Below are positions 8,679 to 33,307 of a stretch of DNA of 36,307 bases, one piece after another (within the stretch, counting starts at the first letter, position 1; each line of letters opens with the position of its first letter). The position numbers and the translations under genes were made by a program. The stretch is from Oerskovia enterophila (GTDB lineage: Bacteria > Actinomycetota > Actinomycetes > Actinomycetales > Cellulomonadaceae), in NCBI RefSeq assembly GCF_001692445.1, contig NZ_MAQA01000049.1, positions 1-36,307 on the forward strand, written 5' to 3'. The notes below the pieces were generated by a model. That model made no database searches. It was not told the DNA's origin and was given only the letters and a program-made list of their open reading frames with translations.

Positions 8679-10541
8679 ATGAGTCGCCCCCTGCGCTCCC
8701 GGACGTCCACCCACGGCCGCAACATGTCCGGAGCCCGCGCGCTCTGGCGCGCCACCGGCATGGGCTCCGAGGACTTCGGCAAGCCGATCATCGCGATCGC
8801 GAACTCGTACACGCAGTTCGTACCGGGCCACGTCCACCTCAAGGACATGGGCGACCTGGTCGCGTCCGCGATCCGCGAGGCCGGCGGCGTCTCCAAGGAG
8901 TTCAACACCATCGCGGTCGACGACGGCATCGCGATGGGGCACGCGGGCATGCTCTACTCGCTGCCCAGCCGCGACCTCATCGCGGACTCGGTCGAGTACA
9001 TGGTCAACGCGCACTGCGCCGACGCCATCGTGTGCATCTCCAACTGCGACAAGATCACGCCCGGCATGCTCAACGCCGCGCTGCGCCTCAACATCCCGGT
9101 CATCTTCGTGTCGGGCGGCCCCATGGAGGCGGGCAAGGTCGTCGTCGCCGACGGTGTGGCCTCGACGCGCCTGAACCTCGTCAACGCGATCAACTACGCC
9201 GCGGACGACAACGTCAGCGACGAGGCCCTCGCGCAGGTCGAGGAGGCCGCGTGCCCCACGTGCGGCTCGTGCTCGGGCATGTTCACCGCGAACTCGATGA
9301 ACTGCCTCACCGAGGCCCTGGGCCTGTCCCTGCCCGGCAACGGCTCGACCCTCGCGACGCACTCGGCCCGCCGTGAGCTGTTCCTCGAGGCCGGCCGCAC
9401 GATCGTCGACCTCGCGCGCCGGTACTACGACGAGGAGGACGACTCGGCCGCGCCCCGCAACATCGCGACCAAGGCCGCGTTCGCCAACGCCATGACGCTC
9501 GACGTCGCGATGGGCGGCTCGACCAACACGGTCCTGCACATCCTCGCCGCTGCGCAGGAGGGCGAGATCGACTTCGACCTGACCGACATCGAGCGCATCA
9601 GCCGCCAGGTCCCGTGCCTGTCCAAGGTCGCGCCGAACCACCCGAACTTCCACATGGAGGACGTGCACCGCGCGGGCGGCATCCCTGCGCTCCTGGGCGA
9701 GCTCGACCGCGCCGGGCTCCTGGACCACGACGTGACGTCGGTGCACACCCCGACGCTGCGCGAGTGGCTCGACGACTGGGACGTCCGAGGAGGCAAGGCG
9801 ACCGAGCAGGCCGTCGAGCTGTTCCACGCGGCCCCCGGCGGGGTCCGCACCACGCAGGCGTTCTCGACGTCGAACCGGTGGGACCGCCTGGACACCGACG
9901 CGGCCGACGGCTGCATCCGCGACCTCGAGCACGCGTACACGGTCGAGGGCGGCCTGGCCGTGCTCCGCGGCAACCTCGCCGAGGACGGCGCGGTGTTCAA
10001 GACCGCGGGCGTCGACCCGGACGTGTTCCACTTCGTCGGCAAGGCGCTCGTCTGCGAGTCGCAGGACGAGGCCGTCGAGAAGATTCTCACCAAGCAGGTC
10101 GAGCCCGGCCACGTGGTCGTCGTGCGCTACGAGGGCCCCGCAGGTGGTCCCGGCATGCAGGAGATGCTCTACCCCACGTCCTTCATCAAGGGCCGTGGCC
10201 TGGGCAAGGTCTGCGCGCTCATCACCGACGGCCGCTTCTCGGGCGGGTCGAGCGGCATCTCGGTGGGCCACGTCTCGCCCGAGGCCGCGGCCGGTGGCGT
10301 GATCGGCCTGGTCGAGGACGGCGACGAGATCGAGATCGACGTCGACACGCGCCTCATCCGCGTCAACGTGCCCGACGAGGTCCTCGCCGAGCGTCGCGCC
10401 AAGATGGAGGCGCGCGAGAACCCCTGGCAGCCCGTCGACCGCGACCGCTACGTCTCGCCCGCGCTGCAGGCCTACGCCGCGATGGCGACGTCGGCCGACC
10501 GCGGCGCGGTGCGCGACGTGTCGCTGCTCAAGCGCCGCTGA
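8679..10541 (+). CDS. ilvD: Dihydroxyacid dehydratase, long E. coli-type form
   Basis: Converts 2,3-dihydroxyisovalerate and 2,3-dihydroxy-3-methylvalerate to the 2-keto acids in valine, isoleucine and leucine synthesis. The 620-residue protein is nearly collinear with E. coli IlvD: it opens [23 protein letters not shown], has Cys123 in [10 protein letters not shown], then [19 protein letters not shown] and the C-terminal [22 protein letters not shown]. At the position where 2Fe-2S enzymes have a Cys (PCN) it reads FVPGH, so by family knowledge it should bind an oxygen-sensitive 4Fe-4S cluster. AAGGAG lies 13 nt before the ATG. A second, different dehydratase gene lies at 11305-13005. The gene is monocistronic, ending in a 19-bp hairpin. 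Confidence 0.95.
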
Positions 10542-10555
10542 GCCGCCCGCCCGCA

Positions 10556-10597
10556 CGACGACGGGCCCGCCCCCAGGAGGGGGCGGGCCCGTCGTCG
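10556..10597. terminator. Strong hairpin terminator between convergent genes
   Basis: A 19-bp perfect stem pairs CGACGACGGGCCCGCCCCC (10556-10574) with 10579-10597 around an AGGA loop. It sits 14 nt after the ilvD stop and 16 nt before the end of the convergent lipoprotein gene, so it probably serves both. No T-tract. Confidence 0.85.
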
Positions 10598-10613
10598 CGT
10601 CAGGGGCAACCCG

Positions 10614-11219
10614 TCAGCACTGCTCCTCGGACTGCTCGGTGATGATCCACCTCGCGCCCTCGGGAACCATGACGGCCGACCCGCAGTCGCCGCTCGCGTA
10701 GGCGACGGACAGCACGGTCGCGTCGGGGCGCTCCTCGCGGACCGTGATCTCGACCTCCGCGACGTCGCCGACCGCGGCGAAGAGCTCGGCCGTGGTCGTG
10801 ATCATCGACGCGCAGTCCGTGATGCCGGGCCACCCCTGCGCGGTCATCTCCGCGACCATCCGGTCGACGAGCGCGGGGGACATGTACCCGCAGGCGGTCT
10901 CGACCGCGGGTGCACGGCTCGCGGCGAGCCAGGCGCGGAAGCTCGCCTCGGGGGACTCGCCGGCGTCGTCGGGCTCCGGCGCGGCCTCGGGGGCCGCCGG
11001 GGCGGTACCGGCTGTCGCCTCCGGTGAGACGTCGGCGGTCACCTCCGGCACGGTCGGTGTCGCCGGCGCGGTCGGCGGCTCGGTCGAGCCCGAGCACGCG
11101 GCCGTGGAGACCAGGACGAGCGCGACGGCCGGGGCCAGCGCGGCGCCGCGCCAGGAGGCCAGGAGCGATCCGCTCCGGGACGGACCGGGGCGGCGTGGGG
11201 CGGGGTGCGTCGTGATCAT
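10614..11219 (-). CDS. Putative secreted lipoprotein of unknown function
   Basis: A 201-residue product with a bacterial lipoprotein signal. A basic N-terminus ([11 protein letters not shown]) is followed by a hydrophobic stretch (about residues 26-40) and a lipobox-like STAAC with Cys near residue 42. A low-complexity Pro/Ala/Thr/Glu linker follows (about 43-92), typical of surface lipoproteins held away from the membrane. The C-terminal domain (about 93-201) has several Cys residues (in ETACGYM, ITDCASM, SGDCGSA and the terminal EEQC), which suggests disulfides outside the cell. I do not recognise the domain. The ATG at 11219 is chosen because the signal peptide begins there. A CAGGAT 6 nt upstream could be a weak leaderless -10 box. 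It is flanked by the two ilvD genes without obvious functional link. Confidence 0.75.
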
Positions 11220-11304
11220 CGCGGCATCCTGCCGCACGGAGCCCACCGACGCGAGGCGCCACGCGCGCTGTGGCCGCACCTCACCCGCGAGGAGATACTC
11301 GGGT

Positions 11305-13005
11305 ATGGCCAGCGACGACATCGACATCAAGCCCCGCTCCCGGACCGTGACCGACGGCATCGAGGCCACGGCCTCGCGCGGCATGCTCCGCGCCGTCGGG
11401 ATGGGCGACGACGACTGGGTCAAGCCCCAGATCGGCATCGCGAGCTCCTGGAACGAGATCACCCCGTGCAACCTGTCGCTCGACCGGCTCGCGCAGGGGG
11501 CCAAGGAGGGCGTGCACGCGGGAGGGGGCTACCCGCTGCAGTTCGGCACCATCTCGGTGTCCGACGGCATCTCGATGGGTCACGAGGGCATGCACTTCTC
11601 GCTCGTGTCGCGCGACGTGATCGCCGACTCGGTCGAGACCGTCATGCAGGCCGAGCGGCTCGACGGGTCGGTGCTGCTCGCGGGCTGCGACAAGTCGCTG
11701 CCGGGCATGCTCATGGCCGCCGCGCGCCTCGACCTCGCGAGCGTGTTCCTCTACGCGGGCTCGATCATGCCCGGCTGGGTCAAGCTCGAGGACGGCACCG
11801 AGAAGGACGTCACGCTTATCGACGCGTTCGAGGCCGTGGGCGCGTGCTCGCGCGGACTCATGAGCAAGGGGGACCTGGACCGCATCGAGCGGGCCATCTG
11901 CCCGGGCGAGGGCGCGTGCGGCGGCATGTACACCGCGAACACCATGGCCTCGGTCGCCGAGGCCATGGGCATGTCGCTGCCCGGCTCGGCCGCGCCGCCC
12001 TCGGCGGACCGCCGCCGCGACAACTTCGCGCACCGCTCGGGCGAGGCCGTCGTGGAGCTGCTGCGCCGCGGGATCACGGCGCGCGACATCATAACCAAGG
12101 AGGCGTTCGAGAACGCGATCGCCGTGGTCATGGCGTTCGGCGGCTCGACCAACGCGGTCCTGCACCTGCTGGCGATCGCGCACGAGGCCGAGGTCGAGCT
12201 GACGCTCGATGACTTCGACCGCGTCGCCGCCAAGGTCCCGCACCTGGGCGACCTCAAGCCGTTCGGCCGGTACGTCATGAACGACGTCGACCGCATCGGC
12301 GGCGTGCCCGTCGTCATGAAGGCGCTGCTCGACGCCGGGCTGATCCACGGCGACGCGCTCACGGTCACGGGCCGGACGGTCGCCGAGAACCTGGCGGAGA
12401 TCGACCCCCCGGACCCCGACGGCAAGATCCTGCGCGCGCTCGACAACCCGATCCACCACACGGGCGGCATCACCATCCTGGGCGGCTCGCTCGCGCCCGA
12501 GGGGGCCGTGGTCAAGTCAGCGGGCTTCGACTCGGACGTGTTCGAGGGCACGGCCCGTGTGTTCGAGCGCGAGCGCGCGGCGCTCGACGCCCTCGAGGAC
12601 GGGACCATCACGGACGGCGACGTCGTCGTGATCCGTTACGAAGGGCCCAAGGGAGGGCCGGGTATGCGCGAGATGCTCGCGATCACGGGAGCCATCAAGG
12701 GAGCGGGCCTCGGCAAGACCGTGCTGCTCCTGACGGACGGACGGTTCTCGGGCGGGACGACCGGGCTGTGCGTGGGCCACGTCGCGCCCGAGGCGGTCGA
12801 CGGCGGACCGATCGCGTTCGTGCGCGACGGCGACCGGATCCGGCTCGACGTCGCACGCAAGACGCTCGACCTGCTGGTCGAGGAGGCCGAGATCGAGGCC
12901 CGCAAGGAGGGCTGGGCGCCGCTCGCCCCGAAGTTCACGCGCGGGGTCCTGGCCAAGTACGCCAAGCTCGTCCAGTCGGCCTCGCGCGGCGCGATCCTCG
13001 AGTAG
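11305..13005 (+). CDS. ilvD: Dihydroxyacid dehydratase, short 2Fe-2S-type form
   Basis: A second dihydroxyacid dehydratase, 566 residues, from the other IlvD subfamily (mycobacterial/plant-like). It opens with [22 protein letters not shown] and carries the three Cys expected for a 2Fe-2S cluster: Cys55 in TPCNLS, Cys128 in GCDKSLPGM, and Cys205 in [12 protein letters not shown]. The C-terminal [21 protein letters not shown] holds the proposed catalytic Ser. By family knowledge 2Fe-2S forms are more oxygen-tolerant. A homologous sugar-acid dehydratase is possible, but the close match to anabolic IlvD argues against it. The ATG at 11305 has GAGGAG about 10 nt upstream. It is divergent from the lipoprotein gene, with 85 bp between the starts. 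Confidence 0.93.
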
Positions 13006-13940: not shown

Positions 13941-15209
13941 TCACGCCCGGGCCACGACCAAGGTCCGGTAGGAGGGGATGAGGACCTCGCGCTGCGCGCT
14001 GCGCGAGACGATCCGCAGGCTCTCGCCGTCTCCCCACAGCGTGCGCAGCAGCGCACCGATCTCCGCGCGGGCCAGGGCCGCGCCCAGGCACAGGTGGCGG
14101 CCCGCCCCGAACCACAGCTGGCGGCTCTCGCGCACGTAGGGGCGGTCGGCGCGGAACGGGCCGGCACCGATGTTCGCGCTCCACACGAGCATCATGATGC
14201 GCTCGCCCTCGGCGAGCCGGCGGCCTGCCACCTCGACGTCGGCCGCGACGCCCCGACCGATGACCGACGCGGGGCTCGTGACCCGCAGCCCTTCGCGCAC
14301 GGCGTTCTCGACCGCGTCGGGCTCCCCGGGGCCTCGGACCTGTCCCGCGGCCTCGTGCTCGGCGTCGGCGCGCATCAGGTCCAGGAGCCGGTGCTGCTCG
14401 CCCGTGTCGACGAGCAGAGCGGTGGTCCGGGCCATCGCGGAGGCCGAGGTCTCGGTGCCCGCGACCATGAGCAGGCACGCGAGCCCCGTGGTCTCCTCGA
14501 GGCCGAGCCCCAGCTCGCGACACCGGCCGAGGAGCGTGTCGCCCGGGGCGTCGCGCCACCCTGCGGGCACCCCTCGCGTGAGCTCGGCCACGATCTCGCG
14601 GGCCGCGACGACCTGGCCGGGGGACAGGTGGGTCGAGCCCGCGCTGCCCAGGGCGATCGTCGCGAGGCGTTCGCCCGTCTCGAAGACCGCGAGCGCGTCG
14701 TCGTCGGTGGGCCAGGCCTCCGTGCCCGGCGCGCGGTCCACGGGGGCCGGCACGCCGAGGAGCGAGATCATCATGCGGCCCACGAGCACGCGGGCCAGCC
14801 GTGCGACGTCGACCGTCGCTCCCTCCCGCAGCGCGGTCCGGGCGTCGGCGAGCGGCCCCGACCACGCCCCGTCGACGAGCTCGGCCGAGCTGCCCTCGGT
14901 GAACAGCTCGCGCGAGCGCGAGCGCAGGTCGTGGTGGCCCGGGCCGTCGAAGAGGTCGAGCACCCAGTCGCCGAGGATCTGCGCCCACAGGTGCCCGACC
15001 CCGCCCTCGCCCACGATCGTGAACGAGCGGTGGTCGCCCAGGACCGTGCGGGCGACGACCGGGTCCGCCGTGACCCAGCCGAGCCCGGGCACCTTGCGCA
15101 GGGGCGGGCCGGGCAGCCGGCGCGCGAGGTGACCGCCGAGCAGCACGGCGGCCATGCCTGGTCGGGCACGGCGCAGGAGGTCCACCTCGTGGCGGGTCGT
15201 GGGAAGCAT
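13941..15209 (-). CDS. Cytochrome P450, divergent to the OleA-like operon
   Basis: A 422-residue soluble P450 monooxygenase. The oxygen-activating helix I motif AGTETSA, the ExxR pair in AVREGLR and the haem-binding FGAGRHLCLG with Cys374 are all intact, so it should be catalytically competent. There is no membrane anchor; electrons must come from a ferredoxin and reductase not encoded here. The C-terminus VLIPSYRTL matches that of the second P450 (17262-18545), suggesting the two are related paralogues. It is transcribed away from the OleA-like gene from a 98-bp shared region, which places it in the same inferred pathway. The ATG at 15209 is preceded by CAGACT at a 7-nt spacing, a possible weak leaderless promoter. 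Substrate unknown. Confidence 0.92.
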   Translation of the reverse strand: MLPTTRHEVDLLRRARPGMAAVLLGGHLARRLPGPPLRKVPGLGWVTADPVVARTVLGDHRSFTIVGEGGVGHLWAQILGDWVLDLFDGPGHHDLRSRSRELFTEGSSAELVDGAWSGPLADARTALREGATVDVARLARVLVGRMMISLLGVPAPVDRAPGTEAWPTDDDALAVFETGERLATIALGSAGSTHLSPGQVVAAREIVAELTRGVPAGWRDAPGDTLLGRCRELGLGLEETTGLACLLMVAGTETSASAMARTTALLVDTGEQHRLLDLMRADAEHEAAGQVRGPGEPDAVENAVREGLRVTSPASVIGRGVAADVEVAGRRLAEGERIMMLVWSANIGAGPFRADRPYVRESRQLWFGAGRHLCLGAALARAEIGALLRTLWGDGESLRIVSRSAQREVLIPSYRTLVVARA

Positions 15210-15307
15210 GCCCGACAGTCTGACGCATCCGGGCCGCCCGCGGGATGGGGAGTTCTCACCCGTGGAAAACCCCCGACGACGACCGTTCCGTGGCTACGCT
15301 GTCGCGG
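15210..15307. promoter_or_regulatory. Divergent promoter region of the P450 and OleA-like operon
   Basis: In 98 bp between the start codons, the plus strand has TACGCT at 15295-15300, 7 nt before the GTG at 15308. The minus strand has CAGACT (15222-15217), 7 nt before the ATG at 15209. Both spacings fit leaderless transcripts. The plus-strand box is the better match. No clear operator palindrome is seen, so the regulator is unknown. Confidence 0.5.
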
Positions 15308-16459
15308 GTGCCGATCCTCGCCGACCCCTCCGTACGCTCCTTCAGTGCCCGACCGACCACCACCTCGGCTCCGGCTGCCGTCCTGGCCGGGGTGAGCGTC
15401 CACCTGCCCGAGCGCACGGTCCAGGTGGCCGACGCCGAGCGTGCGCTCGCCCGGTCGAGCCGACCGGGTGCGGTGCCGCGCCTGCCGATGGTCTCGCGCC
15501 TGACCGGGGTGCAGCAGGTCCACGTCCTGCCGGACGACTGGAACGCCTCGGACCTCGCGGTCGCCGCGTCGGCCACGCTGCTCGCGGCCCAGGGCCTGGA
15601 CGTGGCGGACGTCGACCTGCTGATCTTCGCCTCGGCGAGCCAGGACATGGTCGAGCCCGCCACGAGCCACATCGTCGCGGCCAAGCTGGGCGTCCGCGCC
15701 CCGGTCATGGACGTCAAGAACGCGTGCAACTCGGTCCTCAACGCGATCGAGGTCGCGGAGGCCCTCGTCGCGACGGGCCGGTACGCGACGGTCCTGGTCG
15801 CGTGCGGCGAGGCGCCCTCGCGTGCTGTCCGGTGGGACGTCCCGGACCGGGCGACCTACCTGCTGTCGGCCCCGGGCTACACGATGTCCGACGCCGGAGC
15901 GGCGGTCCTGGTCCAGCGCGCCCCGGGGCGCGGCGAGGGGTCGGGGCCGGCGGCCGGGGCCGCGGACCGGCTCGGGTCCGCGCACGGGAGCGGTGCGTGC
16001 GGCGACAGGCCGCGCGGCATCCTGGCGAGCGCGTTCGGCGCCGAGTCGAGCCACTGGGACGTCGGCATGCTCCCCGGTGGGGGCACGGCGTTCCCGCGCG
16101 ACCTCGACCGCACCTACTTCGAGATCGACGGGTCCCGTCTGCGCGACGCCTTCCTCGCGCTGGGCCCCGGCGTGATCCTCGACGCGCTGGTGCGCGCGGG
16201 CCTCACGTGGGACGACGTGGCCCTCGTGGCCGTGCACCAGGTCGCGGTCGCCTACCTGGCCGACGTCCACGAAGCCCTCGGGCTGCCCGAGGACCGCACG
16301 ATCGTCACGGTCGCCGAGCACGGCAACGTCGCCTCCGCGACGCTTCCGCTCCAGCTCGTGACCGCGCTCGAGAGCGGCCGCGTGGGACCGGGGGACGTGG
16401 TGCTCCTGGTCGGTCTCGCGGGCGGGATCAGCATCGGCGCCATGGCGGTCCGGCTGTGA
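15308..16459 (+). CDS. OleA-like condensing enzyme (3-oxoacyl-ACP synthase III family)
   Basis: A thiolase-fold ketosynthase of 383 residues. The Cys140-His310-Asn340 triad is intact in KNACNSVLNA, VAVHQVA and AEHGNVASATLP. Glu116 in DMVEPATSH sits where OleA has its essential Glu (DYLEPSTA); FabH enzymes lack it. OleA joins two acyl-CoAs head to head into a 2-alkyl-3-ketoacid, so that reaction is inferred here. A Gly/Ala/Arg-rich insert of about 30 residues (about 205-236) interrupts the body and is atypical. The GTG at 15308 is chosen because a leaderless -10 box lies 7 nt upstream; an ATG at 15245 would add 21 residues unlike the family and would place the -10 box inside the gene. The stop overlaps the next gene in a GTGA. 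A FabH-like role with an unusual primer is the main alternative. Confidence 0.85.
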   Translation: MPILADPSVRSFSARPTTTSAPAAVLAGVSVHLPERTVQVADAERALARSSRPGAVPRLPMVSRLTGVQQVHVLPDDWNASDLAVAASATLLAAQGLDVADVDLLIFASASQDMVEPATSHIVAAKLGVRAPVMDVKNACNSVLNAIEVAEALVATGRYATVLVACGEAPSRAVRWDVPDRATYLLSAPGYTMSDAGAAVLVQRAPGRGEGSGPAAGAADRLGSAHGSGACGDRPRGILASAFGAESSHWDVGMLPGGGTAFPRDLDRTYFEIDGSRLRDAFLALGPGVILDALVRAGLTWDDVALVAVHQVAVAYLADVHEALGLPEDRTIVTVAEHGNVASATLPLQLVTALESGRVGPGDVVLLVGLAGGISIGAMAVRL

Positions 16460-17265
16460 GCGCGCACGCGCCCGGGGCGGACGGTGCGCCCCACGAGGCG
16501 CCCCCGGTCCGGCTCGCGGTCGTCGTCCCCGCCCTCGACGAGGCGCACGAGCACGGGATCCTCACGACCCTGCGTGCCCTGCGCGCCCAGGAGGACCGTG
16601 ACTTCGACCTGGTCGTGGTCGACAACGGCTCGACCGACGGCACCCCGGACCTCGTCCGGACGACCATCGCCGACTGGGACGAGCCGCGCTGGCGCCTCGT
16701 GACCGAGGACCAGAAGGGCACGGGCGCCGCGGCGGACACGGGCATGCGCGCGGCGATCGCCGCGGGGGCGACCCACCTCGCGCGCACCGACGCGGACTGC
16801 GTCCCCCCGCCGGACTGGACGGTCCGCGTGAAGGCGGCGTTCGCCGTCGGGCACGACCTCGTGGCCGGGCGCATCGTGGCGCGTACCGACGACCTGCCCG
16901 TCTCGCGCGTCCGCCAGGCCGTCCTCTCGGGGGCCGTGAGCCTCGCGAGCACGTTCGGGAGGTTCCGCCCGGGCAACCAGGACCCGTCCTACCTCGGCCC
17001 CTACGTCATGGCGCCCGGGTGCAACATGGCGATCACCGCCGACCTCTACGAGCGTGCGGGCGGCTTCCCGCGGACCGCGATCGAGGACCTCCACGAGGAC
17101 CGTGCCCTGGTCAACCAGGTGCGGCGCCTCACGTCGGCCTACGGGCCGCACCCCGAGGTCGTGGTGCGGGCCTCGACGCGTCGTGCGCACGCCTGGGGGC
17201 TCGTGCGGACCCTGGGCTGGTACGCCGACCACCGCTACAAGCCCGAGGTCGTGGACATCCGATGA
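16456..17265 (+). CDS. Family 2-type glycosyltransferase
   Basis: A 269-residue GT-A fold glycosyltransferase, cytosolic, with no membrane segment. After an Ala/Pro-rich N-terminus it shows the nucleotide-sugar site VVVPALDEAHEHG, the VVVDNGSTDGTPDLV segment (about residues 52-66), the metal-binding Asp112-Ala-Asp114 in RTDADC, GCNMAI (about residues 191-196), and an acidic IEDLHEDRAL (about residues 211-220) where GT2 enzymes have the catalytic base. It would move a sugar from a UDP- or GDP-sugar to an acceptor. The GTG start overlaps the upstream stop by 4 nt, and the stop overlaps the P450 ATG by 4 nt. Being locked between an OleA-like enzyme and a P450, it probably glycosylates the product, or a hydroxyl made by a P450; this is inference. 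OleABCD pathways have no such gene. Confidence 0.85.
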   Translation: MSAHAPGADGAPHEAPPVRLAVVVPALDEAHEHGILTTLRALRAQEDRDFDLVVVDNGSTDGTPDLVRTTIADWDEPRWRLVTEDQKGTGAAADTGMRAAIAAGATHLARTDADCVPPPDWTVRVKAAFAVGHDLVAGRIVARTDDLPVSRVRQAVLSGAVSLASTFGRFRPGNQDPSYLGPYVMAPGCNMAITADLYERAGGFPRTAIEDLHEDRALVNQVRRLTSAYGPHPEVVVRASTRRAHAWGLVRTLGWYADHRYKPEVVDIR

Positions 17266-18545
17266 CGGCGTCGTCGACGGTGCGGAGGGGCCGCCCGGCC
17301 GTGGCCGAGGATGCCGCGGCCCGCGCCGCCCACCGCTGGGAGGAGCGCGTCCAGCGCGGCGCGCACCCGCTCGTCTACCCGGCGTTCCGCGCGCTCGCCC
17401 GGCGCGGACCGGTCGTGCGCGTCCCGGGGCTCGGGGTCGTGGTGAACGACGCCGCGACGGCCCGCGAGGTGCTGCTCGACACCGAGCACTTCTCCAAGGT
17501 CGGCCCGGGAGCGCCCTCGGACCTGTGGACCCCCGTGCTGGGCCCGTCGGTCCTGCTCAACATGGAGGGCGAGGACCACGCGACGCTGCGGCGGGCGCTC
17601 TCGGGGCTCTTCACCCCGCGCTCGGTCGCGCAGCTCACGGCCACCGAGGCCGGGGCCTCGCTGGGGACGCTGGCGCCGCGCCTGCTCGCGGGCGAGACCG
17701 TGGACCTGGTGAGCGAGGTCGGGGCGCTCGCGGGCACCGTGATCTGCCGCATGACCGGGCTGCCGCCCACGGACGCCGCGGTGCGCGACGCGATGGTCGC
17801 GGCCCAGTCCGTCGTCGGGCTCGTGCGCCTACACCGGCGCCGCCTCACCCCGACCCAGGTCCGCTACGCGCGCGAGGTCCTCGACCGGCTGAGCGAGCCC
17901 GCCCGCGAGGCGTACCGCGACGGCGACCCCTCGACGGTCCCCGGGCGCATGCGCGGCCTGGGCCTGAGTGAGCGCGAGGCGCTCGGAGCCGTCGGGGCGT
18001 TCGTCATGACGGGCACCGAGACCATCCAGTCGTTCACGCCGCGCCTGGTCGCGCTCGCGACCGACACGGGCTGGACGGACCGCCTGCTGCGGGCCGAGCC
18101 GAGCGACCCGCTGCGCGGACGGGTCGTCGAGGAGGCGCTGCGCGTCACGGTCCCGACGCCCGCGATGCTGCGGTCGGTCCGCTCGGCGCACCGCGTGGGC
18201 GCCGTGCCCGTGCGGGCCGGGGAGCGGGTGGTGATCGCGACCGTGACCTGCTGCCGGGCGGGTGGGCCGTTCGCGCCCGACCATGACGCGGACCCCGTCC
18301 TGCGCAACCTGTGGTTCGGCGCGGGCCCGCACTTCTGCCTGGGCATGCCGCTCGCCATGGCCCAGGTGGGCGCGGTCCTGGACGCGCTGCGCCCGCTCGC
18401 GGCGGCGGGTCGCACGCTCGCGGTCACCGACCGCGAGGTCGCGCGGGGAGTCCTCATCCCGTCCTACCGGCGCCTCGAGATCGAGGCGCGCCCGGTGGAT
18501 GGCGAGCAGCCAGCAGCACGCGGAACAGGGGAAGAGACGGCATGA
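17262..18545 (+). CDS. Cytochrome P450 within the OleA-like operon
   Basis: A 427-residue soluble P450. It has helix I as MTGTETIQSF (Gly in place of the usual first Ala), ExxR in EEALRVTVPTP, and the haem loop FGAGPHFCLG with Cys359, so it appears intact. It shares VLIPSYRxL near its C-terminus with the P450 at 13941-15209 and is of similar length. A 20-residue polar tail follows. The ATG overlaps the glycosyltransferase TGA by 4 nt and the TGA overlaps the next ATG by 4 nt, so it is translated as part of the operon. The likely job is hydroxylation or other oxidation of a long acyl chain or lactone. No ferredoxin gene is in the window. Confidence 0.92.
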   Translation: MTASSTVRRGRPAVAEDAAARAAHRWEERVQRGAHPLVYPAFRALARRGPVVRVPGLGVVVNDAATAREVLLDTEHFSKVGPGAPSDLWTPVLGPSVLLNMEGEDHATLRRALSGLFTPRSVAQLTATEAGASLGTLAPRLLAGETVDLVSEVGALAGTVICRMTGLPPTDAAVRDAMVAAQSVVGLVRLHRRRLTPTQVRYAREVLDRLSEPAREAYRDGDPSTVPGRMRGLGLSEREALGAVGAFVMTGTETIQSFTPRLVALATDTGWTDRLLRAEPSDPLRGRVVEEALRVTVPTPAMLRSVRSAHRVGAVPVRAGERVVIATVTCCRAGGPFAPDHDADPVLRNLWFGAGPHFCLGMPLAMAQVGAVLDALRPLAAAGRTLAVTDREVARGVLIPSYRRLEIEARPVDGEQPAARGTGEETA

Positions 18546-20473
18546 ACGGCCCGACGACGGAGCACCTGATCGAGACCATCGGCACGCACGCGCGGGGAGG
18601 GCTCGGCGACGCGGTGGCGCTGCGCTGGTGGTCGCGACCCATCCACCGGGTGCGTGCGGACCGCGTCCCGCACGACCACGTGCGCGAGGAGCTGACGTAC
18701 AGGGAGCTGCTGCGCCGGGTCGAGGCCACGGCCGACGCCCTGCACCGCGAGGGGCTGCGCGCGGGGGACCGCGTGCTGTTCTCGGTCCGGCCCCGGCCCG
18801 AGGGGATCGTCCTGGCGCTCGCGGTCGTGCGGCTCGGGGGCGTCATCGTGTTCGTCGACCCGGGCTCGACCCCCGAGCTGTTCGGGGCGCGCGTGACCGC
18901 GGCCGACCCTCGCTGGGCCATGACCGAGGCGCTGCTCTACGCGATCTCGCGCGGTCCGCTGCGGCACGTGGCCAGGTCGCGTGGCCTCCTGCTGCCGGAC
19001 TACGCGAGCCTGCCGCTGCGCCATGTCCACTCGGGCAGGCGCCTGCCTGGGGTCCCGGGCCACTCGCTGTCCGCGCGCTCGCTCGCGACGGGGCGTCACC
19101 GAGGCGGGCGTCGCCGGTTCGTCGCCGGCGCGCCCCCCGTCACGGACCTGCCGCTCGACGCCGAGGCGCTCGTGGTCTTCACGTCCGGCACGACCTCCGA
19201 CCCCAAGGCCGTGGTCCACTCGGTGGGCTCGCTGGGTTCCGGGTGCGCGCTGCTGGCCGGGGCGTTCTCCCTCGAGCCGGGCGGGGTCGTGCACACCGAC
19301 CAGATGCTGCTCGGGATCCCGGCCCTCCTCGCGGGCGGCACGTGGTCCGTCCCGCCGGGCACCCCGGGGCAGGACGTCGTGACGTTCGCCCGGCACGCAG
19401 CCGGGGAGGCCGGGACGTACCTCGTGCCCGCCGACCTCACGCTCCTGCTCGACGCGGTCGAGTCGGGACGGGCCCCCGCGCGTGGCCCGCAGGTCGCGCT
19501 CGTCGGGGGCGCCCCGGTGACGCGCCCCCTGCTCGACCGCGCGCGCCGCCTCCTCCCGGGCACGCGGTGGATCGGGGTCTACGGCACGACCGAGATCCTC
19601 CCGGTCGCGGTCGTCGAGGCCGACGACAAGCTCGCGCACGCGGGCGACGGGGACCTGGTCGGGCTCCCGCTGGCAGGGATCGAAGCGACCATCGACACGA
19701 GCGCCGTGGAACCGGACGAGGACGGCTCCGCCCCCGGGAGAGCGCCGGTCCCGGCTCTGCACCCTCCCGTGGGAGAGCTGGTGCTGCGCGGTCCCTCGCT
19801 CATGACGGGATACCTGTCGCACCTCGACGGCGGGCAGCCACCCGTGACCGAGCACCGCACCGGAGACCTCGCCTACCTCGACGAGCGGGGACGGATCGTG
19901 CTCGTCGGGCGCACGCGCGACATGATCATCCGCGGCACCGTGAACATCTACCCCGGACTCTTCGAGCCGCGCCTGGCTGCGCTGCCCGGGGTCGGCGAGG
20001 CCTCGCTCGTGGGGGTCCTCCAGGACGACGGGGACGAGAAGGTGGTGCTCGTCGTGACGTCGAGCACCGAGGGCGGGCCCGGCACGGGGGACCCTCGCCG
20101 AGCCGGCGACCCTGACGGTGACGGTGACGGTTCGGGTGGTGTCGACGCCGAAGGAGCGCAGGTTCCGCGCACGTCCTCGGCAGCCGCGGCACCGGCGACC
20201 CCCGCGACGGGCGCAGCCCTCGCGCCTGCGGTGAGCGCCGCCGTCGGGCAGGGGGAGGGGCCCGTCCTGACGGGCGACCACCCGCTCGTCCGTACCGTGC
20301 GCGCGGCCCTGCCGGGCGTGCTCGACCACGGCGCGCTGCCGGACCACGTGCTGCACGCCGACCGCCTGCCCCTCGCGGGGCGCAGCCGCAAGCCCGACCG
20401 CGCGGCCCTGTCCCGTGCGGCCGCCCATCACCTCGCAGGCGCGGCGCCCGGGGCGAGCGCGAGCACCAGGTGA
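18542..20473 (+). CDS. OleC-like AMP-dependent synthetase
   Basis: A 643-residue member of the ANL adenylating superfamily. Core motifs are visible: A3 FTSGTTSDPKAVVHS (about residues 213-227, with Ser-Asp where Gly-x is usual), A5 YGTTEILPVA, A7 HRTGDLAYLDERG, A8 GRTRDMIIRGTVNIYPGLFE, and the A10 Lys617 in RSRKPDR. The LPV after the A5 Glu resembles OleC, the enzyme that adenylates a 2-alkyl-3-hydroxyacid and closes it to a beta-lactone. A Gly/Asp- then Ala/Pro-rich insert (about residues 505-578) splits the C-terminal subdomain and probably is a flexible loop. It overlaps the P450 stop and the dehydrogenase start by 4 nt each. An ordinary fatty acyl-CoA/AMP ligase is possible; context with OleA- and OleD-like genes favours the beta-lactone role. 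Confidence 0.82.
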   Translation: MNGPTTEHLIETIGTHARGGLGDAVALRWWSRPIHRVRADRVPHDHVREELTYRELLRRVEATADALHREGLRAGDRVLFSVRPRPEGIVLALAVVRLGGVIVFVDPGSTPELFGARVTAADPRWAMTEALLYAISRGPLRHVARSRGLLLPDYASLPLRHVHSGRRLPGVPGHSLSARSLATGRHRGGRRRFVAGAPPVTDLPLDAEALVVFTSGTTSDPKAVVHSVGSLGSGCALLAGAFSLEPGGVVHTDQMLLGIPALLAGGTWSVPPGTPGQDVVTFARHAAGEAGTYLVPADLTLLLDAVESGRAPARGPQVALVGGAPVTRPLLDRARRLLPGTRWIGVYGTTEILPVAVVEADDKLAHAGDGDLVGLPLAGIEATIDTSAVEPDEDGSAPGRAPVPALHPPVGELVLRGPSLMTGYLSHLDGGQPPVTEHRTGDLAYLDERGRIVLVGRTRDMIIRGTVNIYPGLFEPRLAALPGVGEASLVGVLQDDGDEKVVLVVTSSTEGGPGTGDPRRAGDPDGDGDGSGGVDAEGAQVPRTSSAAAAPATPATGAALAPAVSAAVGQGEGPVLTGDHPLVRTVRAALPGVLDHGALPDHVLHADRLPLAGRSRKPDRAALSRAAAHHLAGAAPGASASTR

Positions 20474-21423
20474 GCCTGCGGATCGGGGTCACGGGGGCCT
20501 CGGGATTCGTCGGGGGAGCGGTCGCCCGCCGCGCGGTGGCCGACGGGCACCGTGTCTGGACCTTCTCGCGACGCGACGCGCACGTCGACGGGGCCGAGCA
20601 CCGGACGTGGGACCTGGCCGCGGGGCCGCTCGCCGACCCGCCCGCGCTCGACGTGGTCGTGCACGCGGGGGCCGCGGTCTCCGACTGGGCCGCGACCGAC
20701 GTCGCGTGGGCGACCAATGTCGAGGGCACGCGTGCCGTGCGCGACACGTTCCCCGCGGCCCGGTGCGTGCACGTGTCCTCGGGCAGCGTCTACGACCCGT
20801 ACACGCCCACGGTCCGCGGGAAGGAGGACGAGGCCCCCGTCGACCGCTACCTCAACGCCTACGGCCGCACCAAGGCGGCGGGCGAGCGCGTGCTCGCCGC
20901 CGACGCCCGGACCCCCGGTCGTGGACCGGTCGTGATCCTGCGTCCGCACGCCGTCTACGGTCCCGGCGACACCACGCTGCTCCCGCGCATCGAGGCAGCG
21001 GTCCGAGGGCGACGGCTCGTCCTGGTCGGCGACGGGACAGCGCCCCAGTCGCTCACGCACGTCGACAACCTGGTCGACGCGGCGCTCGCGGCCTCGACGG
21101 TCGACCTGCCGGGCGGCGGGGCGCTCGTCGTCAACGTCGCCGACGCCGAGCCCGTGGTCCTGGGCGAGGTCCTGGTCGAGCTCCTGCGCCGCAGAGGGCA
21201 CGACGACGTCACGCTCGCCGGGATCCCGGCGCGCGCCGGGTGGGTGCTCGCCGCGTGCGCCGAGGCTCTCTCGCGCTGGACACGACGGACCGAGCCCCCG
21301 CGGCTCACGCGGTACGCGGTCAGCCACCTCGCGGTCGAGCGGACCTACGACCTGACGGTGCTGCGCGAGGTCCTGGGGGTCGAGCCGCGGGCCACGTCGC
21401 TCGTGGGCGCGGAGGTGTGGTGA
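20470..21423 (+). CDS. OleD-like NAD(P)-dependent dehydrogenase/epimerase
   Basis: A 317-residue extended short-chain dehydrogenase. The Rossmann motif GVTGASGFVGGAVARRAV opens the protein, the catalytic Ser lies in HVSSGSVYDP, and Tyr131/Lys135 are in YGRTK. RPHAVYGPGDTTLLPRI (about residue 157 onward) resembles OleD and 3-beta-hydroxysteroid dehydrogenase relatives. OleD reduces the 2-alkyl-3-ketoacid made by OleA to the 3-hydroxyacid that OleC activates, so all steps to a beta-lactone are present in one operon. The alternative, a nucleotide-sugar epimerase serving the glycosyltransferase, is less favoured because of that motif but cannot be excluded. The GTG start overlaps the upstream stop by 4 nt. 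It is the last gene; no clear terminator follows before the convergent TetR gene. Confidence 0.82.
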   Translation: MSLRIGVTGASGFVGGAVARRAVADGHRVWTFSRRDAHVDGAEHRTWDLAAGPLADPPALDVVVHAGAAVSDWAATDVAWATNVEGTRAVRDTFPAARCVHVSSGSVYDPYTPTVRGKEDEAPVDRYLNAYGRTKAAGERVLAADARTPGRGPVVILRPHAVYGPGDTTLLPRIEAAVRGRRLVLVGDGTAPQSLTHVDNLVDAALAASTVDLPGGGALVVNVADAEPVVLGEVLVELLRRRGHDDVTLAGIPARAGWVLAACAEALSRWTRRTEPPRLTRYAVSHLAVERTYDLTVLREVLGVEPRATSLVGAEVW

Positions 21424-21537: not shown

Positions 21538-22137
21538 TCAGCGAGCTTCTGGGCTGAGCAGACCCGATACGAGAAGCTGCACGAGGACGGTGGCGTCGTA
21601 GCGGGCGTCGTTCGCGGCACCGATGCAGAGGTTGCCGATGCCTTTGAGCACGTTGTACGCATCAACCGGCTGAGCTCTGCCTGCGGACTCGAGCGCTGCC
21701 TCGAGGAGGATGCCGCACACCGGCACGAGGCGTCCGACGAAGTAGGCATGCAGAGCGTCGGACCCAGCGCCGTCTCCCTGCAGTGCGCCAGCGAGCCCGT
21801 GCTTGGTGACGAGAAACTCCACGAACAAGGCAACCCATGCCCGCAGTGCCGCCTCGGGTGTCGCGCTCTCCGCGAGCAGTCGTGGGCCTGCATCGGCACA
21901 TGCCTCGACCTGGTGCCGGTACACAGCCACCACCAGCTCGGGACGCGTCGGAAAGTGACGGTAGATCGTCCCCACACCGACGCCAGCCTTCGCCGCGATC
22001 TCCCGCACCGGAGCGTCGACGCCGGAGGTCACGAACACTGCTGCAGCTGCGTCGAGCAGCACCTGCTGATCTCGACGCGGACGGCCCGCTTGCTGGGGTC
22101 GCGCACCGTGCGACTGCTCCCTCTCGGCGTCAACCAT
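21538..22137 (-). CDS. TetR-family transcriptional regulator
   Basis: A 199-residue one-component regulator. The N-terminal helix-turn-helix is clear: QVLLDAAAAVFVTSGVDAPVREIAAKAGVGVGTIYRHFPTR-type sequence covers about residues 24-65, with the GTIYRHF recognition helix. The C-terminal ~130 residues form the ligand/dimerisation region, probably binding a small hydrophobic molecule. The ATG at 22137 has GAGGA about 8 nt upstream; an in-frame ATG at 22161 with AAGGA upstream would give 207 residues and is equally possible. It is divergent from a hydrolase gene across a 38-bp palindrome, the classic arrangement for a repressor of its neighbour. Codon choice is less GC3-biased than in the surrounding genes. 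Confidence 0.9.
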   Translation of the reverse strand: MVDAEREQSHGARPQQAGRPRRDQQVLLDAAAAVFVTSGVDAPVREIAAKAGVGVGTIYRHFPTRPELVVAVYRHQVEACADAGPRLLAESATPEAALRAWVALFVEFLVTKHGLAGALQGDGAGSDALHAYFVGRLVPVCGILLEAALESAGRAQPVDAYNVLKGIGNLCIGAANDARYDATVLVQLLVSGLLSPEAR

Positions 22138-22178
22138 GGCTTCGTCCTCACACCTTCCCATCGCACGTCCTTGCATTA

Positions 22179-22216
22179 CGGAGCGATGTTCCGTAACGTT
22201 GCGGAACGTTGCTCCG
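22179..22216. promoter_or_regulatory. Probable TetR operator
   Basis: Nested inverted repeats share one centre at 22197.5: CGGAGC (22179) with GCTCCG (22211), GTTCCG (22188) with CGGAAC (22202), and a central AACGTT. The 38-bp element lies between the divergent TetR and hydrolase starts and is the natural operator for TetR dimers. If the longer TetR start is used it lies only 18 nt upstream of it. Confidence 0.75.
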
Positions 22217-22261
22217 ATAACCAAGTATCGCAGAGCGCAGCTCCTCGGAGAGGTACTTCTC

Positions 22262-23206
22262 ATGACTTCATCAATCGTCAGCACGCTGGACGGCATCATC
22301 GGTGCCGGGAGGCCGGTCGTGTCGGTCGCTCCGATCGCACTGTCTGCGCCGGGCAGACCGGTCCCGCTGGAGGTGCGTGTCTCGGCACCAGCGACCGGCA
22401 CAGACCTACCCGTGGTGCTGTTCTCCCACGGCAACGGATGGAACCTCGACGGGTACGCGCCGCTCACCGCGTTCTGGGCCTCTCGAGGGTTCGTCGTGAT
22501 CCAGCCCACGCACCTGGACTCTCGCCGGAACGGCTTCGGGTTCGACCACCCCGTCTTTCCGAGAATCTGGACCGAGCGGATCGCGGATCTCGCACGCATC
22601 CTCGACCAGATCGACACCATCGAGGCCGCCGTGCCAGGGCTCGCCGGCCGTATCGATCGCAGCCAGGTTGCCGCTACCGGTCACTCCTGGGGTGGACAGA
22701 CCGCGCAGGCGCTCCTCGGTGCACGGATCTTCGACGAAACGGGCCAGGTCGGCGAAGACATGTCCGACGAGCGTGTCGCCGCGGGCATTCTCTTCGCCGC
22801 GACCGGCGTCGGCGGCGATGACCTGCACCCGTTCGCACAGGCGAACTTCCCGTTCATGCGCCCCTCGTTCCAGGAGCTGACCACGCCGACCCTCGTCATC
22901 GCCGGCGACCACGACCAGTCCACGATGTCCAGCCGCGGACCCGACTGGTTCACCGACGCCTATACCTGCAGCCCCGGCGCCACCGACCTCCTCACCTTCC
23001 ACGGAGCCGAGCACTCGCTGGGAGGGATCGTCGGGCACGAAGTCGCCGAGACCACCGACGAGAACCCGGAGAGGGTCGCCATCATTCAGCGGATGAGCAC
23101 TGCGTACCTTCGGACCGCCCTGAACGTCGACGAGACCAGCTGGCCTGCGGTCCGCACTGCATTCATTGAGAGCAACGATCCGGTCGCTCACGTCGACAGC
23201 AAGTAG
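22262..23206 (+). CDS. Alpha/beta hydrolase (dienelactone hydrolase/PAF-acetylhydrolase-like)
   Basis: A 314-residue cytosolic serine hydrolase. An oxyanion-hole strand VVLFSHGNGWNLDGY (about residues 52-66) is followed by the nucleophile elbow GHSWGGQ, the likely acid in IAGDHDQST and the catalytic His in HGAEHSLGG. The order and the HGNGW segment recall the dienelactone-hydrolase/PAF-acetylhydrolase group. The Ser nucleophile rules out OleB, which has Asp. GGAGAGG (22247-22253) lies 8 nt before the ATG at 22262. It is divergent from a TetR gene with an operator between, so it is probably induced by a ligand sensed by TetR. Codon use is visibly less GC3-extreme than in neighbours, consistent with transfer of the pair. 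Substrate unknown, likely an ester or lactone. Confidence 0.85.
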   Translation: MTSSIVSTLDGIIGAGRPVVSVAPIALSAPGRPVPLEVRVSAPATGTDLPVVLFSHGNGWNLDGYAPLTAFWASRGFVVIQPTHLDSRRNGFGFDHPVFPRIWTERIADLARILDQIDTIEAAVPGLAGRIDRSQVAATGHSWGGQTAQALLGARIFDETGQVGEDMSDERVAAGILFAATGVGGDDLHPFAQANFPFMRPSFQELTTPTLVIAGDHDQSTMSSRGPDWFTDAYTCSPGATDLLTFHGAEHSLGGIVGHEVAETTDENPERVAIIQRMSTAYLRTALNVDETSWPAVRTAFIESNDPVAHVDSK

Positions 23207-26247: not shown

Positions 26248-28167
26248 ATGGTCCAGGGTCCCCACCCGGCACCGCCGACGCAGGGCGCGCCCGCGCCCGC
26301 CGGCGAGGCCGCGGCGCCGAAGCCAGCCCCGTCCCCCGCGAGCGTCGCAGCCCGCCCCGAGAGCCGAGCCCGCGCTGCGGTGCCCGGCGAGCGTGCGGTG
26401 AGCTCCGTCGTCGGGCCCGAGGAGGTCACGGGCGCGCAGTCGATCGTCCGCTCCCTCGAGGAAGCCGGTGTCGACGTCGTCTTCGGCATCCCCGGCGGCG
26501 CGATCCTGCCCACGTACGACCCGCTCATGGACTCCAAGAAGCTCCGCCACATCCTCGTGCGCCACGAGCAGGGCGGCGGCCACGCGGCCTCGGGCTACGC
26601 CCACGCGACCGGTCGCGTCGGCGTGACCATGGCGACGTCCGGCCCCGGCGCGACGAACCTCGTCACGCCCATCGCCGACGCCAACATGGACTCGATCCCG
26701 CTCGTGGCGATCACGGGCCAGGTCGGCGCGTCCCTGATCGGGACCGATGCCTTCCAGGAAGCGGACATCGTCGGGATCACCCTGCCGATCACCAAGCACA
26801 ACTTCCTCGTGACCGACCCGGACGAGATCCCGCGCGTCATCGCCGAGGCCTTCCACATCGCCCAGACCGGGCGTCCCGGGCCGGTCCTCGTGGACATCGC
26901 GAAGTCGGCCATGCAGGCCCGCACCACGTTCTCGTGGCCCCAGGAGCTCCAGCTGCCCGGGTACCACCCCGTGACCAAGCCGCACTCCAAGCAGATCCGC
27001 GAGGCCGCGCGCCTGCTCGCGACGGCCAAGCGCCCCGTGCTGTACGTGGGTGGCGGCGCGATCCGCTCGGGCGCCTCGGCCGAGCTGCGCCGCCTCGTGG
27101 ACCTGTCCGGCGCCCCCGTGGTGACCACGCTCATGGCTCGCGGCGCGCTGCCCGACTCGCACCCCCAGAACCTCGGCATGCCCGGCATGCACGGCACCGT
27201 CCCCGCGGTCGCGGCGCTCCAGAAGGCCGACCTCATCGTCGCCCTCGGCGCACGCTTCGACGACCGCGTGACCGGCGTGCTGTCGAGCTTCGCTCCGAAC
27301 GCCACGACCGTGCACGCGGACATCGACCCGGCAGAGATCGGCAAGAACCGCGAGGTCGACGTCCCGATCGTGGGCGACCTGCGCGAGGTGCTCACGGACC
27401 TCGTGCCCGAGCTCGAGCGCGAGCACGCGGTCAAGGGCAAGCCGGACCTGGGTGCCTGGTGGCACCAGATCGACGACTGGCGCGAGACCTACCCGCTCGG
27501 CTACTCCGAGCCCGAGGACGGTCACCTCGCGCCCCAGCACGTCATCCAGCGCCTGGGCGAGATCTCCGGCCCCGACTCGATCTACGTCGCGGGCGTCGGC
27601 CAGCACCAGATGTGGGCCGCGCAGTTCATCCGCTACGAGCACCCCAAGACGTGGCTCAACTCGGGCGGCCTCGGCACCATGGGCTACTCGATCCCGGCCG
27701 CGATGGGCGCCAAGGTCGGCCAGCCCGACAAGACCGTCTGGGCGATCGACGGCGACGGCTGCTTCCAGATGACCAACCAGGAGCTCGCGACCTGCACGAT
27801 CAACGAGATCCCCATCAAGGTCGCGCTGATCAACAACTCCTCGCTCGGCATGGTCCGCCAGTGGCAGACCCTGTTCTACGAGTCCCGCTACTCCAACACC
27901 GACCTCCACACGGGCCGCGGTACCCAGCGCGTGCCGGACTTCGTGAAGCTCGCCGACGCCTACGGCTGCGAGGGCATCCGGGTCGAGTCCAAGAGCGAGG
28001 TCGACGCGGCCATCAAGCGCGCCATGGAGATCGACGACCGTCCCGTCGTCGTCGACTTCAACGTCTCGCGCGACGCGATGGTGTGGCCCATGGTCGCCTC
28101 GGGCGTCAGCAACGACAACATCCAGTACGCACGCGGCATCTCGCCCGCGTGGGACCGCGAAGACTGA
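26248..28167 (+). CDS. ilvB: Acetolactate synthase, large catalytic subunit
   Basis: The thiamine diphosphate enzyme that commits pyruvate (or pyruvate plus 2-ketobutyrate) to branched-chain amino acid synthesis. The 639-residue protein has an unusual Ala/Pro-rich N-terminal extension (about residues 1-57), then the Pyr domain with the catalytic Glu in [14 protein letters not shown] and [13 protein letters not shown]. The central FAD-binding domain follows, then the PP domain with the ThDP/Mg motif [16 protein letters not shown] and [12 protein letters not shown]. The anabolic FAD-dependent type is supported by adjacent ilvN. AGGAG lies 6 nt before the ATG. It is controlled by the upstream attenuator. 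First gene of ilvBNC. Confidence 0.97.
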
Positions 28168-28187
28168 GACCGGGGAGAGCCGCAACC

Positions 28188-28712
28188 ATGTCCCGTCACA
28201 CCCTCTCCGTGCTCGTGGAGAACAAGCCCGGCGTGCTCACGCGCGTCGCGGGCCTGTTCGCCCGGCGCGCGTTCAACATCCACTCGCTCGCCGTGGGCCC
28301 CACGGAGCACGAGGAGATCTCGCGCATCACCGTGGTCGTCGACGTCGACCAGAACCCGCTCGAGCAGGTCACCAAGCAGCTCAACAAGCTCGTCAACGTG
28401 ATCAAGATCGTCGAGCTCGACCAGGCCTCGTCGGTCCAGCGCGAGCTGCTGCTCGTCAAGGTCCGCGCCGACGGCGCCAACCGCACGGGCGTCCTCGAGG
28501 TCGTCGAGCTGTTCCGTGCCAAGGTCGTCGACGTCGTCCCCGACGCCGTGACGATCGAGGCCACGGGTACCCCCGAGAAGCTGAGCGCCCTCCTCGGGGC
28601 GCTCGAGCCCTACGGCGTCCGAGAGATCGTCAAGTCCGGCACCGTGGCCGTCGGCCGCGGCGCCCGCTCCATCACCGACCGAGCGCTCGACCGCGCCCAC
28701 CGGTCCGCCTGA
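28188..28712 (+). CDS. ilvN: Acetolactate synthase, small regulatory subunit
   Basis: The ACT-domain subunit that activates IlvB and confers feedback inhibition by valine. The 174-residue protein starts with the ACT domain, HTLSVLVENKPGVLTRVAGLFARRAFNIHSL (about residues 4-34), and includes the Asn-Lys-Pro-Gly-Val region where the valine site is formed. The second half (about residues 80-165), with SVQRELLLVKVRADGANRTGVLEVVELFRAKVVDV, is the C-terminal domain of full-length actinobacterial IlvN. The ATG is 20 nt after the ilvB stop with GGGGAGAG in between. Length is typical. Confidence 0.97.
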   Translation: MSRHTLSVLVENKPGVLTRVAGLFARRAFNIHSLAVGPTEHEEISRITVVVDVDQNPLEQVTKQLNKLVNVIKIVELDQASSVQRELLLVKVRADGANRTGVLEVVELFRAKVVDVVPDAVTIEATGTPEKLSALLGALEPYGVREIVKSGTVAVGRGARSITDRALDRAHRSA

Positions 28713-29831
<1,119 letters not shown>

Positions 29832-29835
29832 CCTT

Positions 29836-29876
29836 CGCCTCGCTTCACGCGGGGTGAGTGGCTCACCTTCGAGGCG
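29836..29876 (+). terminator. Stem-loop after ilvC
   Basis: CGCCTCG (29836-29842) pairs with CGAGGCG (29870-29876), and inside it GGTGAG (29853-29858) pairs with CTCACC (29862-29867). It begins 4 nt after the ilvC stop. There is no T-tract, so termination efficiency is uncertain. Confidence 0.55.
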
Positions 29877-30250
29877 GGCGGCACCTACCGCGCGATCTTC
29901 CATCCGGCCTGGCGGCCTCCCGCCAGACCCGACCACGATCGCGCGGCAGGCGCCGCCCGCCTCTGTGCTGTCGGGTCGCCCGTGCGCGCGCGGGTGCCCG
30001 ACGGCGGTGCCTCCTCGGGAGCTCGGGTCGCGGCTCCGTCCGTGGTCGTGCGGGGGGCGGCGGGGCTCGGTTGAGGGTGACGGGTCGGTCCGCCAGGACG
30101 ACAGGTGCTCGCGCCGGGGGTGCCGTGCCGGTTCGCCAAGGGGACGTACTGGTCGGGCGAGACGGTCGGCCGGGTGGAATCTGTGCGACATCCGCCGGTG
30201 AAAGTGCGACAAGACGGGCAGTCCGGCGTTCCGTGGTCCACCATGGACGC
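29877..30250. other. Intergenic region before the ASCH-PIG-L pair
   Basis: About 370 bp without a convincing gene. The only notable feature is a direct repeat GTGCGACA at 30183-30190 and 30204-30211, 21 bp (two helical turns) apart and 40-68 bp upstream of the ASCH start. It could bind a regulator. Confidence 0.4.
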
Positions 30251-31641: not shown

Positions 31642-31716
31642 GCCGAGACCGCGGCGACCGGACGGCGCGAGGTGCGCTCCGCCGTCGGGCCAGGACGGCG
31701 ACGGCTGCGTGAGGGT

Positions 31717-31753
31717 GGGTGGTGGTCGCCGTCCCAGGCCGCGACCACCACCC
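31717..31753. terminator. Hairpin between convergent PIG-L and ROK genes
   Basis: GGGTGGTGGTCGC (31717-31729) pairs perfectly with 31741-31753 over 13 bp around an 11-nt loop. It lies between the ends of two convergent genes, with no T-tract. Probably a bidirectional terminator. Confidence 0.7.
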
Positions 31754-31773
31754 GTCGGGGCAGGTGAGAGGAA

Positions 31774-33036: not shown

Positions 33037-33059
33037 GTCTTTCGGCCTCTCTGCCGGCG

Positions 33060-33080
33060 TCTTAGGAAAGTTTCCTAAGA
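33060..33080. promoter_or_regulatory. ROK operator palindrome
   Basis: TCTTAGGAAA (33060-33069), one G, then TTTCCTAAGA (33071-33080): a perfect 10-bp inverted repeat, strikingly AT-rich for this genome. It is 24 nt upstream of the ROK start. The TTAGGAAA-TTTCCTAA form fits operators of actinobacterial ROK repressors. On the minus strand a TTGCAC box lies upstream, so the operator would overlap the start of transcription. Confidence 0.85.
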
Positions 33081-33301: not shown

Positions 33302-33307
33302 TAGCGT
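33302..33307 (+). promoter_or_regulatory. leuB promoter -10 box, leaderless type
   Basis: TAGCGT lies 7 nt before the leuB ATG at 33315, with no ribosome-binding site. The same hexamer precedes the photolyase gene. The 33081-33301 stretch upstream holds no gene that I can support. Confidence 0.65.

Follow-up and report, generated by a model that had tools for sequence, protein, structure and literature searches.

The window analysed here, the whole 36,307 nucleotide (nt) stretch of Oerskovia enterophila contig NZ_MAQA01000049.1, carries a conserved operon of a published type, with a second cytochrome P450 (P450) and a different inner gene order. The six-gene unit encodes an OleA-like ketosynthase (KS), a family 2 glycosyltransferase (GT2), an in-operon P450 (CYPin), an OleC-like ligase, an OleD-like short-chain dehydrogenase/reductase (SDR) and a divergent P450 (CYPdiv). 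With moderate confidence the unit is read as making a lipid of the OleACD type that is oxidised and probably glycosylated; the leading guess is a beta-lactone that carries both modifications. Observed are the gene content, order and overlaps, the kinship of KS, ligase and SDR, the intact catalytic motifs, and the joint presence or absence of the genes. The features are as follows.

13941..15209, minus strand: divergent cytochrome P450 (CYPdiv), 422 amino acids (aa); heme motif FGAGRHLCLG, I-helix motif AGTET, Pfam PF00067 at 31.9 bits
15210..15307, no strand: 98 bp intergenic region between CYPdiv and the operon by coordinates, presumed to hold the promoter
15308..16459, plus strand: OleA-like KAS III ketosynthase (KS), 383 aa; Pfam, invariant columns, tree, residue counts and structure comparison
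16456..16459, plus strand: KS/GT2 start/stop overlap GTGA, read from the sequence; -4 gap conserved in relatives
16456..17265, plus strand: glycosyltransferase family 2 (GT2), 269 aa; motifs RTDADC and GGFPRTAIEDLHEDR, Pfam, alignments, fold matches to GT2-type transferases
17262..17265, plus strand: GT2/P450 start/stop overlap ATGA, likewise read and conserved
17262..18545, plus strand: in-operon cytochrome P450 (CYPin), 427 aa; FGAGPHFCLG, TGTET, Pfam
18542..18545, plus strand: P450/ligase start/stop overlap ATGA, likewise read and conserved
18542..20473, plus strand: OleC-like AMP-forming ligase, 643 aa; PF00501 at 143.4 bits, tree placement with the OleC halves of OleBC
20470..20473, plus strand: ligase/SDR start/stop overlap GTGA, likewise read and conserved
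20470..21423, plus strand: OleD-like NAD(P)-dependent SDR, 317 aa; best NCBIfam model NF042422, OleD-only matches at 1e-8 in two ole-carrying genomes

A preliminary description of this DNA had drawn five genes joined by the 4-nt overlaps GTGA, ATGA, ATGA and GTGA. This stands: all six genes are found at the coordinates above, and Pfam recognises their domains (KAS III, GT2, P450, AMP-binding, epimerase-type SDR and the second P450). Every NCBIfam model listed for the six products stays below its cutoff (25 of 93 models listed for the ligase). The start of the KS is ambiguous, with in-frame starts at 15245, 15290 and 15308, and residues 1–17 of its structure model have a predicted confidence (pLDDT) <50.

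The gene set is widespread, not rare. With GT2 as the marker, a cutoff of E ≤ 1e-20 gives 49 carriers of the marker among 200 genomes of the host family, counting the window's own (10 of 25 genera), and 24 among 394 genomes of the class. One of the latter (G495) shows a GT2-like gene alone in the stretch examined, and its locus, L079, is left out of the statements on neighbourhoods. A scan of named genomes with a query centred on one family kept the best 80 of at least 262 relatives, from at least 400 pattern matches; several of these 80 named loci are the same genomes as unlabelled loci. Carriers among the best 80 are Streptosporangium, Planobispora, Planomonospora, Sphaerisporangium, Actinomadura, Pseudonocardia, Catellatospora, one Streptomyces and others, a list that leans to the family at the centre of the query.

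Of these 80 loci, 69 have the five genes on a single strand in the order KS-GT2-P450-ligase-SDR. The Catellatospora loci L294 and L301, from Micromonosporaceae, the family of Actinoplanes atraurantiacus, have the same order. An alternative order, KS-GT2-ligase-P450-SDR, is found on the S. viridifaciens plasmid pKVP2 and in loci L093–L099 of f26, which appear to be Streptomyces-type. At all four junctions a gap of -4 is the commonest value, with gene starts picked by a simple gene caller (KS to GT2, 54 of 74 adjacent pairs; GT2 to P450, 54/79; P450 to ligase, 49/77; ligase to SDR, 48/76). Thus the four overlaps of the window are not chance. A second P450 lies divergent and directly upstream in 28 of the 69 same-order loci, downstream in 3 and upstream on the same strand in 1. 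Among the 22 commonest neighbour families listed, there is no extra cluster gene conserved across all lineages; those listed are lineage-specific and consist of branched-chain amino acid genes and, by eye, LCP-like proteins, MBL-fold proteins and thiolase.

Two genomes of the same genus (G059, G073), without GT2 at 1e-20, keep the flanks of the unit but lack all six genes. The kept flanks are ilvD, a second ilvD and a pterin dehydratase-like gene, then YqeY-like and GH13-like genes (both labelled by eye), the acetolactate synthase large and small subunits and ilvC, ordered as in the window except that one or two genes are added. From the pterin dehydratase-like gene to the YqeY-like gene the distance is 90 and 207 bp in the G059 and G073 empty sites, versus 9,544 bp in the window. 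In G073 this gap (L309) retains a 45-nt piece, probably a deletion scar, with 84% identity to window positions 21379–21423 at the 3′ terminus of the SDR gene (E = 8e-9); a second match in the same comparison (E = 5e-5) is probably chance. The six genes thus behave as one unit, present or absent jointly. Since the empty sites lack all six, the divergent P450 belongs with the operon, and the tie proposed in the preliminary description is upheld by its loss with the five other genes in two congeners. Overlapping opposite-strand open reading frames (ORFs) at 21538–23206, by eye regulator-like (minus) and hydrolase-like (plus), separate the unit from the YqeY-like gene and have no NCBIfam match at 1e-10. 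They are also gone from the two empty sites, and the right boundary of the unit is therefore less sharp than the left.

A cluster of this type has been pointed out once before, in one organism. A region of A. atraurantiacus carries OleA, a glycosyltransferase, OleC, a P450 and OleD without oleB; its OleA, 29% identical to X. campestris OleA, is active in an ester assay, and a hydroxylated, glycosylated beta-lactone was proposed as the product (Smith et al. 2020, PMC7064751, in the part cited here). The cluster was at first called probably undescribed; this is not supported, as the five protein types and the product class had already been reported there, and the idea of the product class is not new. 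The window carries OleA, OleC, OleD, a glycosyltransferase and a P450 together without OleB, the set that defines the cluster type of Smith et al. Compared by description only, the two clusters have in common the five protein types, the lack of oleB and the proposed product class, and five measured relatives of the window KS show 28–29% identity to X. campestris OleA, close to the value for the A. atraurantiacus protein. The published listing, in the part cited, places OleC ahead of the P450, unlike the window but as in pKVP2, and mentions no second P450, whereas the window has CYPdiv. Among at most the 20 best-ranked entries per search of the open-access literature, closed papers being outside the scope, there was no further description of the gene set and no product. 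New here are the second P450, the separate OleA clade, the GT2 fusions to P450 and ligase, and an LstAB-like pair in locus L080.

KS residues C140, H310, N340 and E116 correspond to C143, H285, N315 and E117 of X. campestris OleA. In the KS tree an OleA grouping that includes the window KS separates from FabH with a support of 100/99 (45 versus 18 rows). The tree leaves out the L080 KS pair and nine rows (near-duplicates; L069 and L072 with over-extended starts); the residue counts keep these nine rows and leave out the pair. The FabH/KAS III rows are what remains of 20 matches after repeats of own-genome rows or of the L154 OleA were dropped. Glu117 is present in 36 of 36 window-type KS and 18 of 18 OleA sequences and in none of 18 FabH/KAS III. 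The Cys-His-Asn triad is found in 36/36 window-type rows, but it does not discriminate OleA because FabH/KAS III carry it as well (Cys 18/18, His 17/18, Asn 18/18). Judged by sequence, the window-type KS form a separate OleA clade. Assignment of the KS as an OleA-type enzyme is supported, and condensation of acyl-CoAs is predicted.

In its own tree the ligase falls with the OleC half of OleBC and apart from 26 diverse ligases, again with a support of 100/99; other samples give 100/100 with 5 ligases and 97 with 28 (quick tree). The tree excludes L219 and L224 for their length, L208 by a motif filter, L220 as an OleBC, and near-duplicates; the 26 were chosen without aiming at MenE or non-Ole PRK09274 proteins. 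The L080 and L094 ligases, among four other family ligases scanned, score best on PRK09274, as OleBC proteins do. Kinship to OleC is likely and beta-lactone formation by the ligase unproven, and this is the weakest of the assignments. The SDR scores best on NF042422, with 124 bits under a cutoff of 580. As a query at 1e-8, it retrieves only OleDs in two ole-carrying genomes (G672, G679); its median identity to 17 OleDs is 33%, and YxxxK is present in 31 of 33 window-type SDRs. The own genome shows no OleBC at 1e-40 and no OleB ortholog, the best OleB-like match there giving 40.9 bits versus 300–384.

The oleABCD genes are treated in PMC7158056 (in the part cited). Clusters of the order oleA-oleBC-oleD (Micrococcales-type) share OleA, OleC and OleD relatives and tight overlaps with the window, and KS-OleBC-SDR is found in 17 of 18 ole loci examined, L143 having given no gene calls. 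Olefin clusters carry an OleBC fusion of 840–920 aa, whereas the window has neither OleB nor OleBC; no GT2 or P450 of the window kind was detected in the 17 olefin loci. The KS of olefin cluster L144 is 25% identical to the window KS (one case measured). The OleA sequences of two oleA-oleBC-oleD clusters, L154 and L158, display the active-site motif NACNS found in the window KS. The nocardiolactone nlt cluster, which is not known to carry a GT2/P450 insertion, differs from the window in that respect. It consists of oleACD without oleB, makes a beta-lactone (PMC7064751, section 11, the part cited), and by description only is like the window in lacking oleB.

In the proposed pathway the OleA-like KS would join two fatty acyl-CoAs head to head, in a non-decarboxylative Claisen condensation, to a 2-alkyl-3-keto acid, which the OleD-like SDR would reduce to a 2-alkyl-3-hydroxy acid. 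The OleC-like ligase would adenylate the acid and then close the beta-lactone. One or both P450s may hydroxylate a chain, and GT2 would transfer a sugar onto a hydroxyl. Because there is no OleB, the product would not be decarboxylated to an olefin. We infer every reaction, the order of the steps, the sugar and the lactone.

Several observations weigh against this proposal. The KS scores 155 bits on FabH profiles versus 126 on the OleA-type model, below both cutoffs. The latter model, the NCBIfam equivalog PRK09258, fits the L144 OleA; its cutoff is 285, and the window KS is not filed there. The best PDB sequence match of the KS (phmmer) is titled 3-oxoacyl-ACP synthase 3, not OleA, and its identity to X. 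campestris OleA is 22%. The ligase reaches 94 bits on NCBIfam OleC model NF045786 (Xanthomonas type; cutoff 900) and is not filed there; in 149 genomes of the order, 69 match this model at 1e-40 and 0 exceed the cutoff. Of the four other family ligases scanned, that of L082 has MenE as its top model and the GT2-fused one of L091 a general acyl-CoA ligase. In L094, the one GT2 of Streptomyces type that was aligned, the ED motif is missing, and Streptomyces-type P450s are distant (46–88 bits), so steps may differ across the family. No second P450 was seen next to the operon in 37 of the 69 same-order named loci, and it is thus not essential to the cluster type; the L080 stretch shows neither an in-operon P450 nor an OleD-like SDR. 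The likeness to the A. atraurantiacus cluster is one of gene types.

The profile and phmmer scores lean to FabH, as would fit a KS that primes a fatty acid or polyketide pathway in the manner of FabH, with the ligase as an ordinary fatty acyl ligase. This is very improbable and is rejected on the trees of both enzymes and on the occurrence of Glu117, found in all window-type KS and in no FabH/KAS III sequence. The L154 OleA behaves alike on the profiles (186 bits, also below the PRK09258 cutoff) yet lies in an oleA-oleBC-oleD cluster, and in the six genes Pfam finds neither an acyl carrier protein nor a second ketosynthase domain. A placement with FabH and ordinary ligases, which the preliminary description named as a refutation, did not occur, and the OleA/OleC/OleD type it put forward is borne out by the trees and the OleA Glu117.

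Condensation and reduction could also proceed without a lactone, the ligase re-activating the 2-alkyl-3-hydroxy acid as a CoA or AMP ester and the product being an open, mycolate-like hydroxy-acid glycolipid. OleA and OleD chemistry alone yields a corynomycolate-like acid, the L082 and L091 ligases (two of four) are best on MenE or general CoA-ligase models, and the fusion of GT2 to the ligase (L089, L091) suggests activation coupled to glycosylation. However, the ligase tree places the window enzyme with OleC and not with the 26 other ligases, and no acyltransferase is among the six genes by Pfam. The open acid appears unlikely.

The GT2 fold search indicates a GT2-type fold only and no donor; going by their titles, most of the structures near it are saccharide-chain transferases (WrtF, chondroitin polymerase, RmlT, TarS). 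This, and the location of the unit in a branched-chain amino acid biosynthesis region, would suit P450s and a GT2 that serve separate substrates, e.g. a cell-envelope glycolipid, and are merely co-regulated with the OleACD pathway. Such an arrangement is improbable, given that order and overlaps are kept across several actinobacterial families, that all six genes are jointly absent, and that GT2 fusions occur, with the P450 in L077 and with the ligase in L089 and L091 (Pfam support for L077 and L091). The genomes with ligase fusions have a second locus (L088, L090) with a P450, an SDR and a divergent P450; KS and ligase were not found there within the stretch examined. Variant cluster L092 displays two GT2-type genes (249 and 518 aa) flanking the ligase.

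CYPdiv was also considered as a P450-derived glycosyltransferase activator (TIGR04515, 48.7 bits, cutoff 343) and rejected, as the heme Cys pattern is intact in every cluster P450 listed. The sole listed P450 without it is a 40-bit match in L081, outside the cluster.

In lipstatin biosynthesis the KAS III heterodimer encoded by lstAB condenses two acyl-CoAs without decarboxylation; LstA bears C-H-N and E60 of LstB is essential (PMC12141560, in the part cited). L080 shows two adjacent KAS III genes upstream of GT2 and ligase. One has the Cys, His, Asn and Glu; the other lacks His and Asn, has its Cys one column off, and carries its Glu at position 58 of the ORF as called. By residue pattern the pair resembles LstAB and may take the place of the single ketosynthase that the window has. 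The lipstatin pathway adds an amino acid via a nonribosomal peptide synthetase.

Extended to its relatives, the OleACD-type reading would describe a large, old actinobacterial lipid family of glycosylated, P450-oxidised 2-alkyl-3-hydroxy acids or beta-lactones made via a separate OleA clade, with GT2 as an integral partner and not a late add-on; this is quite possible, if short of probable. Beta-lactones include lipase and protease inhibitors. The spread, the empty sites and the fusions offer ready comparisons, for instance between congeners with and without the unit, by which the product can be found directly. As the KS clade shows, a FabH-looking annotation can hide OleA-type enzymes; Glu117 separates the two kinds in the set examined.

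The unit is embedded in genes of branched-chain amino acid biosynthesis (8679–13005 and 26248–35694), with two dihydroxy-acid dehydratase genes to its left and the acetolactate synthase large and small subunits, ilvC, leuB and ilvE to its right. In each of 17 family loci, window included, and in L078 of another family, one or more of five branched-chain amino acid genes occur within the stretch examined. The linkage may reflect ancient synteny, or a connection with branched-chain acyl precursors. A genome of the same family, G021 (L076, L151), carries both an OleBC gene and a GT2 cluster; its GT2 match covers residues 76–269 only and contains one TGA stop. The tandem dehydratases (8679–10541 and 10744–13005) are of different subfamilies, PRK12448 and PRK00911 types. 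As called, the second has about 190 extra N-terminal residues, and its true start is probably further in.
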